Source: Streptomyces sp. JB150 (GTDB taxonomy: Bacteria; Actinomycetota; Actinomycetes; Streptomycetales; Streptomycetaceae). From it: DNA of 64,000 nt. The position numbers were made by a program, and so were the translations under genes. The stretch covers positions 3,485,085 through 3,549,084 of the forward strand of contig NZ_CP049780.1 of NCBI RefSeq assembly GCF_011193355.1, in the 5' to 3' direction. Positions 3,161 through 55,451 of this stretch are shown in pieces. Each line of letters begins with the position of its first letter. The stretch's first letter is position 1. A model generated the notes under the pieces. That model was given only the letters and a program-made list of their open reading frames with translations, ran no database searches and was not told where the DNA came from.

Positions 3161-4183
3161 GTGGCCAAGGTGACTCGGGATGATGTGGCGCGGCTGGCGG
3201 GGACTTCGACCGCCGTCGTCAGCTATGTCATCAACAACGGACCCCGGCCGGTCGCCCCGGCCACGCGCGAGCGTGTCCTCGCGGCGATCAAGGAACTGGG
3301 TTACCGGCCGGACCGGGTCGCCCAGGCGATGGCCTCCCGCCGCACCGACCTCATAGGCCTGATCATCCCGGACGCCCGCCAGCCCTTCTTCGGGGAGATG
3401 GCGCACGCGGTCGAACAGGCCGCGTCGGAGCGCGGGAAGATGGTCCTGGTCGGCAACACCGACTACGTCGGCGAGCGCGAGGTCCACTACCTGCGCGCCT
3501 TCCTCGGGATGCGGGTCTCCGGCCTGATCCTCGTCTCGCACGCGCTGAACGACCTGGCCGCCGCCGAGATCGAGGCGTGGGACGCCCGGATCGTGCTGCT
3601 GCACGAGCGCCCCGAGTCCATCGACGACGTCGCCGTGGTCACCGACGACCTGGGCGGCGCCCAGCTCGCCGTACGCCACCTGCTGGAGCACGGCTACGAG
3701 TACGTCGCCTGCATGGGCGGCACCGCCGAGACCCCGGCGGTCGGCGACCCGGTCTCCGACCACGTCGAGGGCTGGCGGCGCGCCATGGAGGAGGCGGGCG
3801 TCCCGACCGAGGGACGGCTGTTCGAAGCGCCGTACAACCGTTACGACGCCTACCGGGTGGCCCTGGAGATCCTCGCCGGCCCGGACCGCCCGCCCGCGAT
3901 CTTCTGCTCCACCGACGACCAGGCGATCGGCCTGCTCCGCGCGGCCCGCGAACTGCGCATCGACGTCCCCGGCGAGCTGGCCGTGGCCGGCTTCGACGAC
4001 ATCAAGGAGGCCGCGCTCGCCGACCCGCCGCTGACCACGGTCGCCTCGGACCGGTCCGCGATGGCGCGCGCCGCGGTGGACCTCGTCCTCGACGACGGGC
4101 TGCGGGTGGCGGGCTCACGGCGGGAACGGCTGAAGGTGTTCCCGTCGCGGCTGGTGGTGCGGCGGTCGTGCGGCTGTGAGTGA
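3161..4183 (+). CDS. LacI/GalR family transcriptional regulator
   Basis: A 340-residue LacI-type repressor. Residues 3-55 are the helix-turn-helix ([20 protein letters not shown]) and hinge helix ([16 protein letters not shown]). The rest is a periplasmic-binding-protein-like sensor with [35 protein letters not shown] and VAGFDDI, where family members bind a sugar or related ligand. The start is GTG at 3161. The C-terminus ends in a Cys-rich RRSCGCE. It stands alone 98 bp after glnR with no sugar operon beside it, so it may act on remote targets. The ligand is unknown. Confidence 0.9.
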
Positions 4184-4221
4184 CCTCCGCGGGTCCGGGC
4201 GGCGCTCCTCTCACGGCGTGG

Positions 4222-5175
4222 TCACCACTGGGCGATGAGCGGCGTGTCCGGCTCGTGCCGCCGCCACGCCTCGCCGAGGCGGACCAGGCGGGCGGGCGCG
4301 GCGATACCGCGCACGGTGGCGATCCGCCCGTCGGCGAGGTCGAACGTGACGGCGCCGATGACCCGGTCGCCCAGCACGAAGAGGACGGCGGGGGCCCCGT
4401 TGACGGGCGCGTAGTGGACGGCGGGGGTGCCACCGGCCAGGCGCCGCTTCGCGGGCGTGGGCCGGAAGCCGGCCCGGACGACCGTGGCGATGCGCTGCGG
4501 GGTGTCGAACCGCAGCAGCCGCTCGGCCCGGCCCGCGCCGTCGGAGATCGCGGTCGCGTCGTCGGTGAGCAGCGCCACGAGCCGGTCGGTACGGCCCGAG
4601 GAGGCCGCGGCGAGGAATTCCTCGACGATCCGGCGGGCCGATTCCGGGTCCGGTGCACCGCTGCGGCGGCGGCCGGCGGTGAGGCGGCGCCGGGCCCGGT
4701 GCAGGTGCTGCTGGCTCGCGGACTCGGTGATGTCGAGGATCTCGGCGATCTCGGCGTGGCTGTGGGAGAACGCCTCGCGCAGGAGGTAGACGGCCCGCTC
4801 GACGGGTGACAGGCGTTCCATGAGCGTCAGCACGGCCAGCGAGACCGATTCGCGCTGCTCGAACGTGTCGGCCGGGCCGAGCATCGGGTCGCCGTCGAGA
4901 AGCGGTTCGGGCAGCCAGGCACCGACGGCGCGTTCGCGGCGGGCCTGTGCCGAGCGGAGCCGGTCGAGACAGAGATGGGTGACGACCTTGGTCAGCCAGG
5001 CCTCCGGCACCCTGATCCGCTGCCGGTCGGCCGCCTGCCAGTGCAGGAACGCGTCCTGCACGGCGTCCTCGGCGTCGGCGGCGGAGCCCAGCAGGCGGTA
5101 CGCCAGTGAGGCCAGCCGGTTCCGGCTGGCCTCGAACCGGCTGGTGTCGAAGCGATCGGTGGCGATGCCGTCCAC
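4222..5175 (-). CDS. ECF41-type (SigJ-like) RNA polymerase sigma factor
   Basis: A 317-residue ECF sigma factor. Region 2 is at about 12-85 (LASLAYRLLGSAADAEDAVQDAFLHW) and region 4 at about 115-165 (LSPVERAVYLLREAFSHSHAEIAEIL). A fused SnoaL/NTF2-like domain occupies the last ~140 residues. The linker motif WLPEPLL and SDGAGR in the extension match the WLPEPL and DGGGR motifs of the ECF41 group, in which the C-terminal domain replaces a classical anti-sigma factor and tunes activity. ECF41 genes typically neighbour a carboxymuconolactone decarboxylase, oxidoreductase or epimerase; here the FAD oxidoreductase lies 10 bp upstream in the same direction. The signal is unknown. Confidence 0.9.
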   Translation of the reverse strand: MDGIATDRFDTSRFEASRNRLASLAYRLLGSAADAEDAVQDAFLHWQAADRQRIRVPEAWLTKVVTHLCLDRLRSAQARRERAVGAWLPEPLLDGDPMLGPADTFEQRESVSLAVLTLMERLSPVERAVYLLREAFSHSHAEIAEILDITESASQQHLHRARRRLTAGRRRSGAPDPESARRIVEEFLAAASSGRTDRLVALLTDDATAISDGAGRAERLLRFDTPQRIATVVRAGFRPTPAKRRLAGGTPAVHYAPVNGAPAVLFVLGDRVIGAVTFDLADGRIATVRGIAAPARLVRLGEAWRRHEPDTPLIAQW

Positions 5176-5185
5176 GTGGCCGGTC

Positions 5186-6385
5186 CTAGGCGGCCGGGCG
5201 CATCGCGGCCGGTGCCGCCGGGACGGCGGTCAGCCGGCGCCGGCGCCTGGGCATGCCGAAGGTGGGGTGCGAGACCGCCCACAGCGCGGTCGCGAGGATG
5301 CCCGCCTTGATCCGCGCCGCCTTCCGGCCGCCCAGGTACGCCGGCTTGGCCCGCCCTTCGCCGTCGACCAGCTGCAGGATCCCGTCCCGCCGCCCGAGGC
5401 TGATGTGATTGCCCACGTAGGTCAGTCTGACGTCCGCGGTCCTGCCGCCGGTCAGGCGCCCCACGATCGCCTCGGTGGCCTGCCGGGCGGTGTCGCCGGC
5501 CGACGCGCAGGACATCGGCAGCGGCCGGCCGTTGTCGCCGATGGCGTGGACGCTGTCGCCGATGGCGTGGACGTCCGGGTGGGAGACCGAGCGCATGCTG
5601 CGATCGACGACGATCCGGCCCTCCTCGGTGACCTCCAGACCGCTCTGGGCGGCGATGGAGTCGACGGCGAACCCGGCCGTCCACACGGTCGCGTCGGAGG
5701 CCAGGACGGTGCCGTCGGCGCACAGCACCCGCGTCGCCTCGACGGCTTCGACGGAGGTGTGCTCCAGGACGGTGATGCCCAGCCGGTCACAGGCCCGGCG
5801 CAGGTGGCCGCGGGCCCCGGCGGAGAGCCGGGCGGCCGGCTCGCCGCGGGCGATCAGCGTCACCCGCAGGCCGGGCCGGGACTCGGCGATCTCGGTGGCG
5901 GTCTCGATGCCGGTCAGCCCGTCGCCGACGACCAGGACGGTGCCGCCGCCCCGCCCTTCCAGGGCGTCCAGGCGATCGCGCAGGCGCAGCGCCGAGGGCC
6001 GGCCGGCGACGTCGAAGGCGTGCTCGGCCACGCCGGGCACACCGTGGTCGGCGACACGGCTGCCGAGCGCGTAGACGAGCGTGTCGTAGCCGAGTTCGCC
6101 GCCGCCGCCCGTGTCCGCCACGGCGACGGTGCGGCGCTCGGGGTCGACGGCGGTGACCCGGGCCACGCGCAGCCGGATCCCGGTGCCGGCGAAGACGTCG
6201 GCGAGCTTCGGCGCCCGGATCCGCCGGCCGGCCGCGAGCTGGTGCAGCCGCAGCCGCTGGACGAAGTCCGGCTCGGCGTTGACCACGGTGATCTCGGTGT
6301 CCGCCGGGGACAGCCGGCGGGCCAGGTTCCCGGCCGCGTAGGCCCCGGCATATCCGGCGCCGAGGACGACGATGCGATGCTTCAT
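5186..6385 (-). CDS. NAD(P)/FAD-dependent oxidoreductase (NDH-2-like), ECF41 partner
   Basis: A 399-residue pyridine-nucleotide-disulphide-type oxidoreductase. The N-terminal GAGYAGAYAAGNL is the FAD Rossmann loop, VVGDGLTGIETATEIAE (about 150-170) is the NAD(P) loop, and VHAIGD near residue 275 is the second FAD contact. The length and order resemble type-II NADH dehydrogenases and related quinone reductases. It is the first gene of a two-gene unit with the ECF41 sigma factor, a typical oxidoreductase target. A 7-residue unit at the FAD-contact motif (VHAIGDS/VHAIGDN) is duplicated, which may disturb cofactor binding. The C-terminus has no clear membrane anchor but carries a basic stretch (RRRRR). 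Confidence 0.87.
   Translation of the reverse strand: MKHRIVVLGAGYAGAYAAGNLARRLSPADTEITVVNAEPDFVQRLRLHQLAAGRRIRAPKLADVFAGTGIRLRVARVTAVDPERRTVAVADTGGGGELGYDTLVYALGSRVADHGVPGVAEHAFDVAGRPSALRLRDRLDALEGRGGGTVLVVGDGLTGIETATEIAESRPGLRVTLIARGEPAARLSAGARGHLRRACDRLGITVLEHTSVEAVEATRVLCADGTVLASDATVWTAGFAVDSIAAQSGLEVTEEGRIVVDRSMRSVSHPDVHAIGDSVHAIGDNGRPLPMSCASAGDTARQATEAIVGRLTGGRTADVRLTYVGNHISLGRRDGILQLVDGEGRAKPAYLGGRKAARIKAGILATALWAVSHPTFGMPRRRRRLTAVPAAPAAMRPAA
5533..5573. repeat. 21-bp in-frame tandem duplication in FAD-binding motif
   Basis: TGTCGCCGATGGCGTGGACG at 5533-5552 is repeated at 5554-5573 (21-bp period). It duplicates VHAIGD within the region that contacts the FAD pyrophosphate in this family. 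Confidence 0.87.
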
Positions 6386-16372: not shown

Positions 16373-16554
16373 GCGCCCCCCTGTCGTTCTTATCCGGGTG
16401 TGTGAGGGTCCCGGCGCAGCCTAGAGTCAACGCGCGTAGCGCGACAGGGGGTTCATGGTTACAGCCTGGTTTCCCTTTGGGTTTCCCCTTGCGCTCGCCC
16501 GCGCTGTCCCCCCGTGCCGCCGTTTTGGCGGCGCCTCCCCTTACTCTCGTAGGC

Positions 16555-17481
16555 ATGACCAGCGACGACTTGGCACGGCCCGGCCCCGCACGCGCCCTGG
16601 AGACCCACGCGGCGCTCTCCCCCGGGCAGATCGAGGCCGTTCTCGACCTGCTCGCCCAGGCCGCCCGCGTCGACGGCCGGCAGGCGGTGTCCGAACAGGG
16701 CCGGCTCCAGCTGCGCGGCGGTGAGCGCGAGGGCGTCTCCCATCTGCTGCTCACCAGCGGCGGCGAACTCGTCGGCTACGCGCAGCTGGAGGACACCGAC
16801 CCGGTCGAGGCCCCGGCCGCCGAGCTGGTCGTCCACCCCTCGCACCGCGGCCACGGCCACGGCCGCGCCCTCGGCACGGCGCTGCTCGCCGCCTCCGGCA
16901 AGCGGCTGCGGGTGTGGGCGCACGGCGGGCACTCGGCCGCCCGGCATCTGGCGCAGGTGCTGGGGCTGACCCTGTTCCGCGAACTGCGGCAGATGCGGCG
17001 GCCTTTGTCCGGGTTCGACCTGCCGGAGCCGGTGCTGCCGGCCGGGGTCACCGTCCGCACCTTCGTGCCCGGCCAGGACGACGCGGCCTGGCTCGCCGTC
17101 AACGCGGCCGCCTTCGCGCACCATCCGGAGCAGGGCTCCCTCACCCAGCGCGACCTCGACGACCGCAAGGCGGAGCCGTGGTTCGAACCGGCGGGCTTCT
17201 TCCTGGCCGAGCGCGGGGGCGAGCTGGTCGGCTTCCACTGGACGAAGACGCACGCCGAGGAGCAGCTCGGCGAGGTGTACGTGGTGGGGGTCGCGCCCGG
17301 CGCGCAGGGCGGCGGCCTCGGCAAGGCGCTCACCCTGATCGGCCTGCGCCACCTGGCCGCGCAGGGCCTGCCGACGGCGATGCTGTACGTCGACGCGGAC
17401 AACAAGGCGGCCGTGTCGGTGTACGAGGGCCTGGGATTCACCACATACGAGACGGACCTCATGTACCGGACCGAAACCTGA
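16555..17481 (+). CDS. mshD: mycothiol synthase MshD
   Basis: A 308-residue protein of two tandem GNAT domains. The N-terminal copy has HPSHRGHGHGRALGTALL and the C-terminal copy has VVGVAPGAQGGGLGKALT and LYVDADNKAAVSVYEGLGF. This double-GNAT layout, with an acetyl-CoA site in the C-terminal half, is that of MshD, which acetylates Cys-GlcN-Ins in the last step of mycothiol synthesis. The ATG at 16555 fits the usual MshD length (~300). It is monocistronic and followed by a 10-bp hairpin terminator. Confidence 0.9.
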   Translation: MTSDDLARPGPARALETHAALSPGQIEAVLDLLAQAARVDGRQAVSEQGRLQLRGGEREGVSHLLLTSGGELVGYAQLEDTDPVEAPAAELVVHPSHRGHGHGRALGTALLAASGKRLRVWAHGGHSAARHLAQVLGLTLFRELRQMRRPLSGFDLPEPVLPAGVTVRTFVPGQDDAAWLAVNAAAFAHHPEQGSLTQRDLDDRKAEPWFEPAGFFLAERGGELVGFHWTKTHAEEQLGEVYVVGVAPGAQGGGLGKALTLIGLRHLAAQGLPTAMLYVDADNKAAVSVYEGLGFTTYETDLMYRTET

Positions 17482-52491: not shown

Positions 52492-53747
52492 CCCCCGCGC
52501 CCCGCACCATGGACGCCATGCCGCAGGCCCCCGAGCCCCTGACCCAGCACATCCAACGCCTCCTCACCCGGGTGCGCGCCTTCGACCGGCGCCACCCGCT
52601 GGCCTGGGACCTCCACCTGACCGGCTTGTGCGTCTCCCTCGCCCTGCTGGACTACGCCGCCGACGGCTGGCGCGACCTCGCGCGCGGCACACCCGCCCCC
52701 GACTGGCTCGTCGTCGTCCTCAGCCTCGGCTTCTCCGTCCCCCTCCTCCGGCGCCGCACCCACCCCCTCGCGGTCCTGCTGGCCATGACCCCGTCCGCCC
52801 TGGTCACCGCCTGGACCGGCACGGTCCTCCAGGCCGCCATGCTCCCACTGGTCGTCGTCTACAACATCGCCCTGCGCCTCCCCCTGCGCTCCCTGTGGTG
52901 GACCACCGCCGTCGCTACGCTCCCCACCCTTGTCCTCACTGTCCGTCACCGGGAAAACGGCTGGGACCAGGAGATGGTTCCCCCGCTGATGTCCCTCGCC
53001 GTGGCCGTTCTGGCGGGCATCGCGGTCCGCACCCGCCGCGACTACACGGAGGCCCTGGAAGACCGCGCCCGTCGCCTGGAGGTCGAACGCGACCAGCAGG
53101 CCCGGCTCGCCGCCGCCGCCGAACGGGCCCGCATCGCCCGCGAGATGCACGACATCATCGGCCACAACCTCTCCGTCATCACCGGCCTGGCCGACGGCGG
53201 CCGCTACGCCGCCGCGAAGTCCCCGCAGCGAGCCGCCCAGGCCCTGGACGCCATCGCCGGCACGAGCCGCCAGGCCCTCACCGAACTCCGCCGCCTCCTG
53301 GACGTCCTGCGCGACGACCACCAGCACCCCGCGGCCGACCTCGCCCCGCAGCCCGCGCTCACGGACCTGGACCAGCTCATCGACGGCGTCCGCGCGGCCG
53401 GCCTCCCCGTCCGCACCACCGTCCACGGCAGCCCGTCCCTCCCTCCGGGCCGCCAGCTCACCGTCTACCGCGTCATCCAGGAGGCCCTGACCAACACCCT
53501 CAAGCACGCGGGCCCGGACGCCACCGCGGAGATAGTGCTGCGCTACGACGCCCAGGGCGCCACCACCGTCACGATCACCGACACCGGCCACGGCCGGCCC
53601 GTGAACGGCACCGGCGGGGGCCGCGGACTTCCCGGCATGCGCGAGCGAACGGCCCTCTACGGCGGCACACTTGAGGCCGGCCCCCGCCCGCACCCCGGAC
53701 GGGGTTGGCGCGTCCGTCTGCACCTACCGGAGGAAGCACCGCAGTGA
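52488..53747 (+). CDS. sensor histidine kinase (NarL/DesK class)
   Basis: A 419-residue HisKA_3 kinase. About five or six membrane helices (40-185) with very short loops suggest intramembrane sensing. RIAREMHDIIGHNLSVI carries the phospho-His, IQEALTNTLKHAG is the N box and DTGHGRPVNGTGGGRGLPGM the G boxes. It forms a pair with the downstream regulator, overlapping by 4 bp. Confidence 0.93.
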   Translation: MTPAPRTMDAMPQAPEPLTQHIQRLLTRVRAFDRRHPLAWDLHLTGLCVSLALLDYAADGWRDLARGTPAPDWLVVVLSLGFSVPLLRRRTHPLAVLLAMTPSALVTAWTGTVLQAAMLPLVVVYNIALRLPLRSLWWTTAVATLPTLVLTVRHRENGWDQEMVPPLMSLAVAVLAGIAVRTRRDYTEALEDRARRLEVERDQQARLAAAAERARIAREMHDIIGHNLSVITGLADGGRYAAAKSPQRAAQALDAIAGTSRQALTELRRLLDVLRDDHQHPAADLAPQPALTDLDQLIDGVRAAGLPVRTTVHGSPSLPPGRQLTVYRVIQEALTNTLKHAGPDATAEIVLRYDAQGATTVTITDTGHGRPVNGTGGGRGLPGMRERTALYGGTLEAGPRPHPGRGWRVRLHLPEEAPQ

Positions 53748-54418
53748 CGACCGTCCTCATCGCCGACGACCAGCCCCTCCAGCGCCTCGGCTTCCGCATG
53801 CTGCTGGAGAGCCAGGACGACATGACGGTCCTCGGCGAGGCCGCCAACGGGACGGAGGCGGTCCGGATGACCGCCGAGCTGCACCCCGACGTCGTCCTGA
53901 TGGACGTCCGCATGCCCGGCCTCGACGGCATCGAGGCCACCCGCCGCATCGTCGCCACCGGCGACCGCACCCGCGTCCTGATCCTCACCACCTTCGACCT
54001 CGACGAGTACGCCTACTCCGGCCTCCGCGCCGGAGCCTCCGGCTTCCTCGTCAAGGACGCCCAGCCCGAGGAACTGCTGTCGGGCATCCGCGCGGTCGCC
54101 ACCGGGGACGCGGTCGTCGCCCCCAGCACGACTCGCCGCCTCCTCGACGCCTACGCCCAGCACCTCCCGGCCGGCCACCCACCGGCCGGCACCCCGGCAC
54201 CCGAAGACCCCCGCCTGGCCCCCCTCACCGACCGGGAACGGGAAATCCTCACGGTCATCGGCAAAGGCTGGACGAACACCGAGATAGCGGCCCGCCTGCA
54301 CCTGGCCGAATCCACGGTGAAAACGCATGTGAGCCGCGTCCTCGCGAAAACGGGCTCACGGGACCGCATTCAGGCGGTGATCCTGGCGTACGACACCAGG
54401 CTGGTGGAACCCTCCTGA
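53744..54418 (+). CDS. LuxR-type response regulator
   Basis: A 224-residue NarL/LuxR regulator: acidic pocket DD (8-9), Asp54 (VVLMDVRMPG), Lys in FLVKDA. The C-terminal HTH has LTDREREILTVIGKGWTNTE and STVKTHVSRVLAKTG. GTG 53744 follows GGAGG. It ends 7 bp before a bidirectional terminator. Confidence 0.94.
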   Translation: MTTVLIADDQPLQRLGFRMLLESQDDMTVLGEAANGTEAVRMTAELHPDVVLMDVRMPGLDGIEATRRIVATGDRTRVLILTTFDLDEYAYSGLRAGASGFLVKDAQPEELLSGIRAVATGDAVVAPSTTRRLLDAYAQHLPAGHPPAGTPAPEDPRLAPLTDREREILTVIGKGWTNTEIAARLHLAESTVKTHVSRVLAKTGSRDRIQAVILAYDTRLVEPS

Positions 54419-54425
54419 AACGCAG

Positions 54426-54457
54426 AAAAGCCCCGTGCCGAATGGCACGGGGCTTTT
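54426..54457. terminator. bidirectional terminator between the regulator and rRNA remnant
   Basis: AAAAGCCCCGTGCC (54426-54439), loop GAAT, GGCACGGGGCTTTT (54444-54457): perfect 14-bp stem flanked by a T-tract on either strand. Confidence 0.88.
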
Positions 54458-54465
54458 CTCAATAA

Positions 54466-54536
54466 TTGTTCGGCGGCGTCCTACTCTCCCACAGGGTCCC
54501 CCCTGCAGTACCATCGGCGCTGTAAGGCTTAGCTTC
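54466..54536 (-). rRNA. rrf: 5S rRNA, 3' portion only
   Basis: On the minus strand the sequence from GAAGCTAAGCC to GCCGAACAAT matches the last ~71 nt of Streptomyces 5S rRNA, including the GATGGTACTGCAGGGGGGAC and GTGGGAGAGTAGGACGCCGC blocks. The first ~50 nt are missing; the preceding sequence is rrn leader-like. A functional 5S cannot be made from this copy alone. Confidence 0.88.
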
Positions 54537-54600
54537 TTCCCGCTCTCGCGTTTCCCTTTCCGGCGGTTCCGACTCTATCAGATCCTTTCGGGCCTGACTC
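54537..54600 (-). promoter_or_regulatory. rRNA promoter, proximal, with leader
   Basis: TAGAGT -10 (54572-54577 complement) with a GAGTCA -35-like hexamer (54595-54600) 17 bp away, in a TCTGATAGAGTCGGAA context typical of Streptomyces rrn promoters. About 35 nt of leader with GGGAAACGCGAGAGCGGGAAG-like sequence connect to the 5S fragment. Confidence 0.65.
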
Positions 54601-54651
54601 CCAGTCAGAGGGGCTTGTCTTTCCGGCCGTTGGGCCGTTCCGACGTCTCAA

Positions 54652-54681
54652 ACTTTAGCGGATCCGTCCGGCGATTCCCAA
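54652..54681 (-). promoter_or_regulatory. rRNA promoter, middle
   Basis: TAAAGT -10 (54652-54657) with TTGGGA (54676-54681) 18 bp upstream, in GGATCCGCTAAAGTTTGAGA context similar to the distal promoter. Confidence 0.6.
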
Positions 54682-54824
54682 TCGGACTGCCGGGCCCCTA
54701 TTCGAATTGAATTCGGGCACGCCGAAATCAACCCCGTCGGGAGATCGTGCTTGTGGTTTGAGGTGCCGCTCTCGCGGCGGAAGTGTCGTCGCAGAACCGT
54801 TCCGGCTCCCTGACAACCCGAAGA

Positions 54825-54867
54825 ACTCTACGGATCCGTCCAGGGGGTGTCAAGTACCCCCTGTCAA
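54825..54867 (-). promoter_or_regulatory. rRNA promoter, distal
   Basis: TTGACA (54848-54853) and TAGAGT (54825-54830) with a 17-bp spacer, near consensus. A second TTGACA lies at 54862-54867. With the two downstream promoters this is the multi-promoter arrangement of Streptomyces rRNA operons. Confidence 0.72.
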
Positions 54868-54896
54868 GATCTTTTCCGACCCCGGTGACGGCCTGG

Positions 54897-55451
54897 TCAG
54901 TCCAGGTCGGAGAGGCGGCCGCCGGCGTCCGGCTGGGCGTGCTCCACCCTGCGGAGCAGCCGGGTCAGGACCTCGCCGAGGGCCGTTCGCTCCGCGGGGG
55001 TGAGGTCCTGGAGCAGGTCCTCCTCGAACACGGTCGCGAGGCGCATGGCCTCCAGCCACTTCTCGCGGCCCTCGGGGGTCAGCTCCACGATCACCCGTAC
55101 GCGGTTGTTCTCGTCCCGCTCCCGGGTGACCAGGCCCTCGGCGACCATGCGGTCGATGCGGTGGGTCATGGCGGCCGGGGTGAGGCCGAGGCGCTTGGCG
55201 AGGTCGCCGGGGCCCATGCGGTAGGGCGCGCCGGAGAGGACGAGGGCCTTGAGGACCTCCCACTCGGCGTTGCTGATGCCGAGGGCGGCGGTCTGCCGGC
55301 CGTAGGCGACGTTCATGCGGCGGTTCAGCCGGGACAGCGCCGACACGATCTTCTCGACCTGGGGGTCGAGGTCCTGGAACTCGCGCTGGTACGCGGCGAT
55401 CTGTTCTTCGAGTGTCGGCTCGGCGCCGAGTGTGCCGGGGATGTCGCCCAT
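54897..55451 (-). CDS. MarR-family regulator
   Basis: A 184-residue MarR protein. Its winged helix has LGISNAEWEVLKALVLSG, MGPGDLAKRLGLTPAAMTHR and VTRERDENNRVRVIVELTPEG; a helical dimer interface follows. Divergent from an MFS exporter with a palindromic region between, the usual arrangement for MarR control of drug efflux. Confidence 0.93.
   Translation of the reverse strand: MGDIPGTLGAEPTLEEQIAAYQREFQDLDPQVEKIVSALSRLNRRMNVAYGRQTAALGISNAEWEVLKALVLSGAPYRMGPGDLAKRLGLTPAAMTHRIDRMVAEGLVTRERDENNRVRVIVELTPEGREKWLEAMRLATVFEEDLLQDLTPAERTALGEVLTRLLRRVEHAQPDAGGRLSDLD

Follow-up and report, generated by a model that had tools for sequence, protein, structure and literature searches.

Assembly error almost certainly explains an rRNA operon reduced to its leader and a 5S tail in a one-contig Streptomyces genome

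We analysed a locus of Streptomyces sp. JB150 at which an rrn promoter region and 16S leader run directly into the 3' part of a 5S rRNA gene. This miniature locus of promoter plus 5S tail is almost certainly an assembly error, which makes the finding an ordinary one: with a probability of roughly 0.98, a normal 16S-23S-5S operon, one of six, lost its repeated body here during assembly or gap closing. An earlier note on this DNA had put forward a real deletion of about 5 kb that left strong promoters driving a tiny RNA, and had named an assembly collapse across repeated rrn operons as the alternative. The alternative is strongly supported, since the assembly shows truncation at every one of the six rrn loci found, two of them contain N, no 16S rRNA gene was found, and relatives carry a full operon at this site. 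The headline deletion is not supported, given that none of the six loci escaped truncation and that 16S was not found.

The window, that is, the whole stretch of 64,000 nucleotides that was analysed, covers positions 3485085-3549084 of the one contig (7,318,937 bases) that makes up a 7.32 Mb assembly with a whole-genome completeness score of 98.82%. The window contains no N. ARAGORN detected no tRNA and Rfam, at curated thresholds, no family in the window. Two open reading frames flank the rrn locus, which occupies 54880 to 54425 of the minus strand. Upstream is a gene at 54897..55451 on the minus strand, which from recognition of its sequence we take to encode a MarR-type regulator. Downstream and convergent is a gene at 53705..54418 on the plus strand, presumably encoding a response regulator, a name likewise given by recognition. 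The promoter region and 16S leader (54537..54880, minus strand) are cut at 54537 and joined there to the 3' part of 5S rRNA (54466..54536, minus strand), which is followed by the rrn terminator hairpin (54424..54459, minus strand). The earlier description of a promoter and leader block joined to a 5S 3' part and hairpin was thus correct, with the joint at 54537|54536, as was the absence of 16S and 23S, neither of which was detected between leader and 5S by Rfam at curated thresholds. The 5S part is 99% identical to the 5S end of an intact operon of S. canus (L063) and measures 71 nt by BLAST to this relative, as had been stated, while the Rfam match ends at 54468 and gives about 69 nt. With 117 nt as the length of the L063 5S, about 41% of the gene is missing and not half of it. 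The Rfam 5S match scores 30.9 bits, below the gathering score of 38.

The three rrn-type promoters proposed for the leader are weakly supported. TTGACA-17-TAGAGT at 54853-54825 was the sole promoter-type site to pass a scan for sigma-70-type promoters (1 found, 0.1 expected), and the two others are -10-like motifs only (TAAAGT at 54657-54652 and TAGAGT at 54577-54572). Counted up to 420 bases after the upstream gene, with some contigs ending sooner, the motifs in strict form are present in 23, 39, and 62 of 80 relatives, respectively, and no relative has all three. The hairpin at 54459-54424 is strong in the predicted fold and absent from the terminator list of a pattern scan; we take it to be a terminator between the convergent genes rather than a small RNA. 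It has a weak match to the Rfam F6 sRNA on both strands, under the gathering score. A known small RNA was considered and rejected, as the 13 Rfam matches that 54300-55000 gave at E values of 1 or below all stay under their gathering scores, and the matches on the hairpin (F6 and others, the 5S match apart) were attributed to the terminator.

The joint (54536..54537, minus strand) is most likely false. In a comparison with the complete leader and 5S at another rrn locus of this genome (L014), the leader agrees as far as GGGAA, the 5S from GAAGC on, and the overlap is 0. A deletion mediated by microhomology leaves a single copy of the shared bases. With no shared bases, the joint is blunt and has one GAA from each side, so that the GAAG microhomology of 3-5 bases previously read from it does not hold. 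Among the 80 relatives, GAGAGCGGGAA continues with CCTGGAAA in all six occurrences found, and GAAGCTAAGCC is preceded by AACCCG in all seven. A search of 392 sampled genomes of the genus for the exact 29 bases across the joint found them in the window's genome and in none of the 391 others; this is supporting evidence only, since variants escape an exact match and draft contigs are often broken at this place. A conserved mini-rrn locus was rejected on this count and on the full operon at the site in relatives.

The relatives are the best 80 of 523 loci anchored on the upstream MarR-type gene, which was matched in them at 88-97% identity, and the promoter and leader block follows this gene in all 80. 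In 72 loci, the contig ends 231-1,171 bases past the gene (median 404.5); a break at rrn repeats is usual for short-read contigs. Eight loci reach across, seven of them with a full 16S-23S-5S operon by Rfam and one (L074) with 3,397 N. The downstream response-regulator gene was matched in L063, which has both flanks, and was unmatched in the other seven. The L063 relative of this gene (16428-17122, 87% over 704 bases) lies directly after the 5S of the full operon. Among 60 other genomes, both flanks lie within 6 kb on one contig in at least six (G004, G007, G009, G015, G019, and G027), with a spacing of 5.2-5.7 kb among the matches listed; more distant flank matches were attributed to response-regulator paralogues. 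Ten of the 60 genomes were picked by hand, and leader and 5S are on one contig, 5,248-5,448 bases apart, in eight of them. The remaining two are G017, with leader and 5S on two contigs, and G015, for which no leader piece was listed there. A 16S was listed between leader and 5S in seven of the eight genomes, the six listed 16S of G004 lying elsewhere.

Using the feature as query, we found six rrn loci in the assembly, near 1.094, 1.571, 3.041, 3.540 (the window), 4.272, and 5.600 Mb. None is complete: each is truncated by a different joint, and two contain N. In the coordinates of L063, the intact S. canus operon (offset 10500), the sequence is kept up to base 408 and resumes at base 5814 at the window locus (no N); the corresponding pairs are 694 and 5607 at 4.272 Mb, 662 and 5616 at 1.571 Mb, and 433 and 5855 at 3.041 Mb (no N in the stretches fetched for these three), and 447 and 5810 at 5.600 Mb, with 100 N between. 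The BLAST pieces against L063 overlap by 6 bases at the 4.272 Mb joint and lie 10 and 6 bases apart at the 1.571 and 3.041 Mb joints, respectively. At 4.272 and 1.571 Mb (L014, L016), the leader continues to just short of the 16S start, where the sequence passes directly to the 23S end, leaving stubs longer than that of the window. These two loci gave the two Rfam 5S matches at the cut-off (150 of 464 candidates scored). The 1.094 Mb locus (L100, G000:C1:1093400-1101000) is a second and plainer assembly error. Its leader match ends at reference position 499, followed by 2,600 N, 23S positions 3199-3818, 100 N, positions 3742-3969 and 3892-5692, 100 N, positions 3742-3968 again, 100 N, and the 5S tail. 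The 23S pieces are thus out of order, and one stretch of about 228 bases is present twice. We take the four N runs, three of which are 100 long, as scaffold gaps; the longest, of 2,600, stands where about 2,700 reference bases including the whole 16S belong, so that the assembly itself seems to allow for a 16S there. Gap marks and scrambled pieces are therefore seen at other rrn loci of this genome, and the joint in the window has neither.

A genuine loss of about 5.3 kb from this operon alone, with its promoters driving a short, possibly abundant leader-5S RNA and the other five truncations being assembly errors, is very improbable. The joint is free of N, and one promoter-like site and the hairpin are present, as such a deletion would have it. 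Against it stand the joint without microhomology, which is private to this genome among those sampled, the full operon at the site in relatives, and the same type of truncation at six of six loci, which leaves no separate cause needed for the window locus. No intact rrn operon was found elsewhere in the genome. We rejected the deletion on the truncation of all six loci together with the lack of any 16S found.

16S was not found in the genome by either search. The Rfam model yielded none (26 of 154 candidates scored); it detects 16S in 9 of 14 controls, so that this search can miss. With the L063 16S as DNA query, none was found either (9 of 9 candidates scored), and that query matched 47 of 60 other genomes with up to six candidates scored per genome. 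The 13 other genomes without a DNA match have 3 to 1,300 contigs, and the window's genome is the only one-contig miss among the 14. In G010, a two-contig genome of the genus, 16S is listed on contig C2 in pieces only (for example, query positions 3-351 and 1125-1541) at several loci, with six candidates scored; the pattern resembles the rrn misassembly described here. No cell can live without 16S. It follows from the lack of any 16S found that, unless the rrn operons reside on a replicon outside the assembly, one or more of the six truncations must be errors, and parsimony extends this to all six.

That exception, a chromosome that truly lost all its rRNA operons and depends on a plasmid missing from the assembly, as in Aureimonas ureilytica or Persicobacteraceae, appears exceedingly improbable. 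Such bacteria exist (PMC10645730), and no 16S was found at the six chromosomal loci here. The assembly consists of one contig on which no 16S was found, and it includes no rrn plasmid. Yet all six loci still have pieces of leader and 5S tail, N gaps interrupt two of them, and the 1.094 Mb locus has 2,600 N in place of about 2,700 operon bases besides its disordered and duplicated 23S pieces. The paper names four clades, and neither 'Streptomyces' nor 'Actinobacteri' occurs in its main text. We judged plasmid-borne rrn operons unlikely on the N gaps and the disordered 23S pieces.

The preferred reading is the loss of the operon body during assembly. Reads from near-identical operons may not have been placeable. 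The contig ends, which reach slightly into the repeat with promoter and leader on one side and 5S tail and terminator on the other, would then have been butted together, at the window locus without N. The exact software step behind the collapse is one that we infer. The locus is very probably about 5.3 kb longer in the living cell. Two observations speak against a collapse: the window joint and three more of the six loci are without N and are presented as finished sequence, and the 16S searches are imperfect (9 of 14 controls for Rfam, 13 of 60 other genomes missed by the DNA query).

These results are a warning that a one-contig genome that is scored 98.8% complete can be without detectable 16S. 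The clean, N-free joints at rRNA loci here are very probably false, and rrn copy counts or 'mini-rrn' genes read from such an assembly would mislead. Were the deletion real, the locus would offer a natural fragment RNA under a strong promoter; nothing here asks for such a reading.

The riboSeed paper (PMC6009695) discusses rDNA repeats that are collapsed or misassembled in bacterial genomes. The window locus resembles them in that near-identical rrn repeats were unresolved, with flanks kept and the repeated body lost, and in that contigs of relatives break at the same place. It differs in that the flanks are joined without N, so that the stub looks like finished sequence, and in that a one-contig assembly is affected at all six loci found. 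PMC10645730 documents that four clades, Aureimonas, Oecophyllibacter, Persicobacteraceae, and Treponema saccharophilum, have truly lost their chromosomal rrn operons. The shared trait is that no 16S was found on the chromosome, whereas six chromosomal rrn stubs, two with N gaps, are present here. In comparison with an ordinary Streptomyces rrn operon, the assembly text lacks 16S, 23S, and the 5' part of 5S, but the promoter and leader block, the 5S tail, the hairpin, and the neighbouring genes all match intact operons in relatives.
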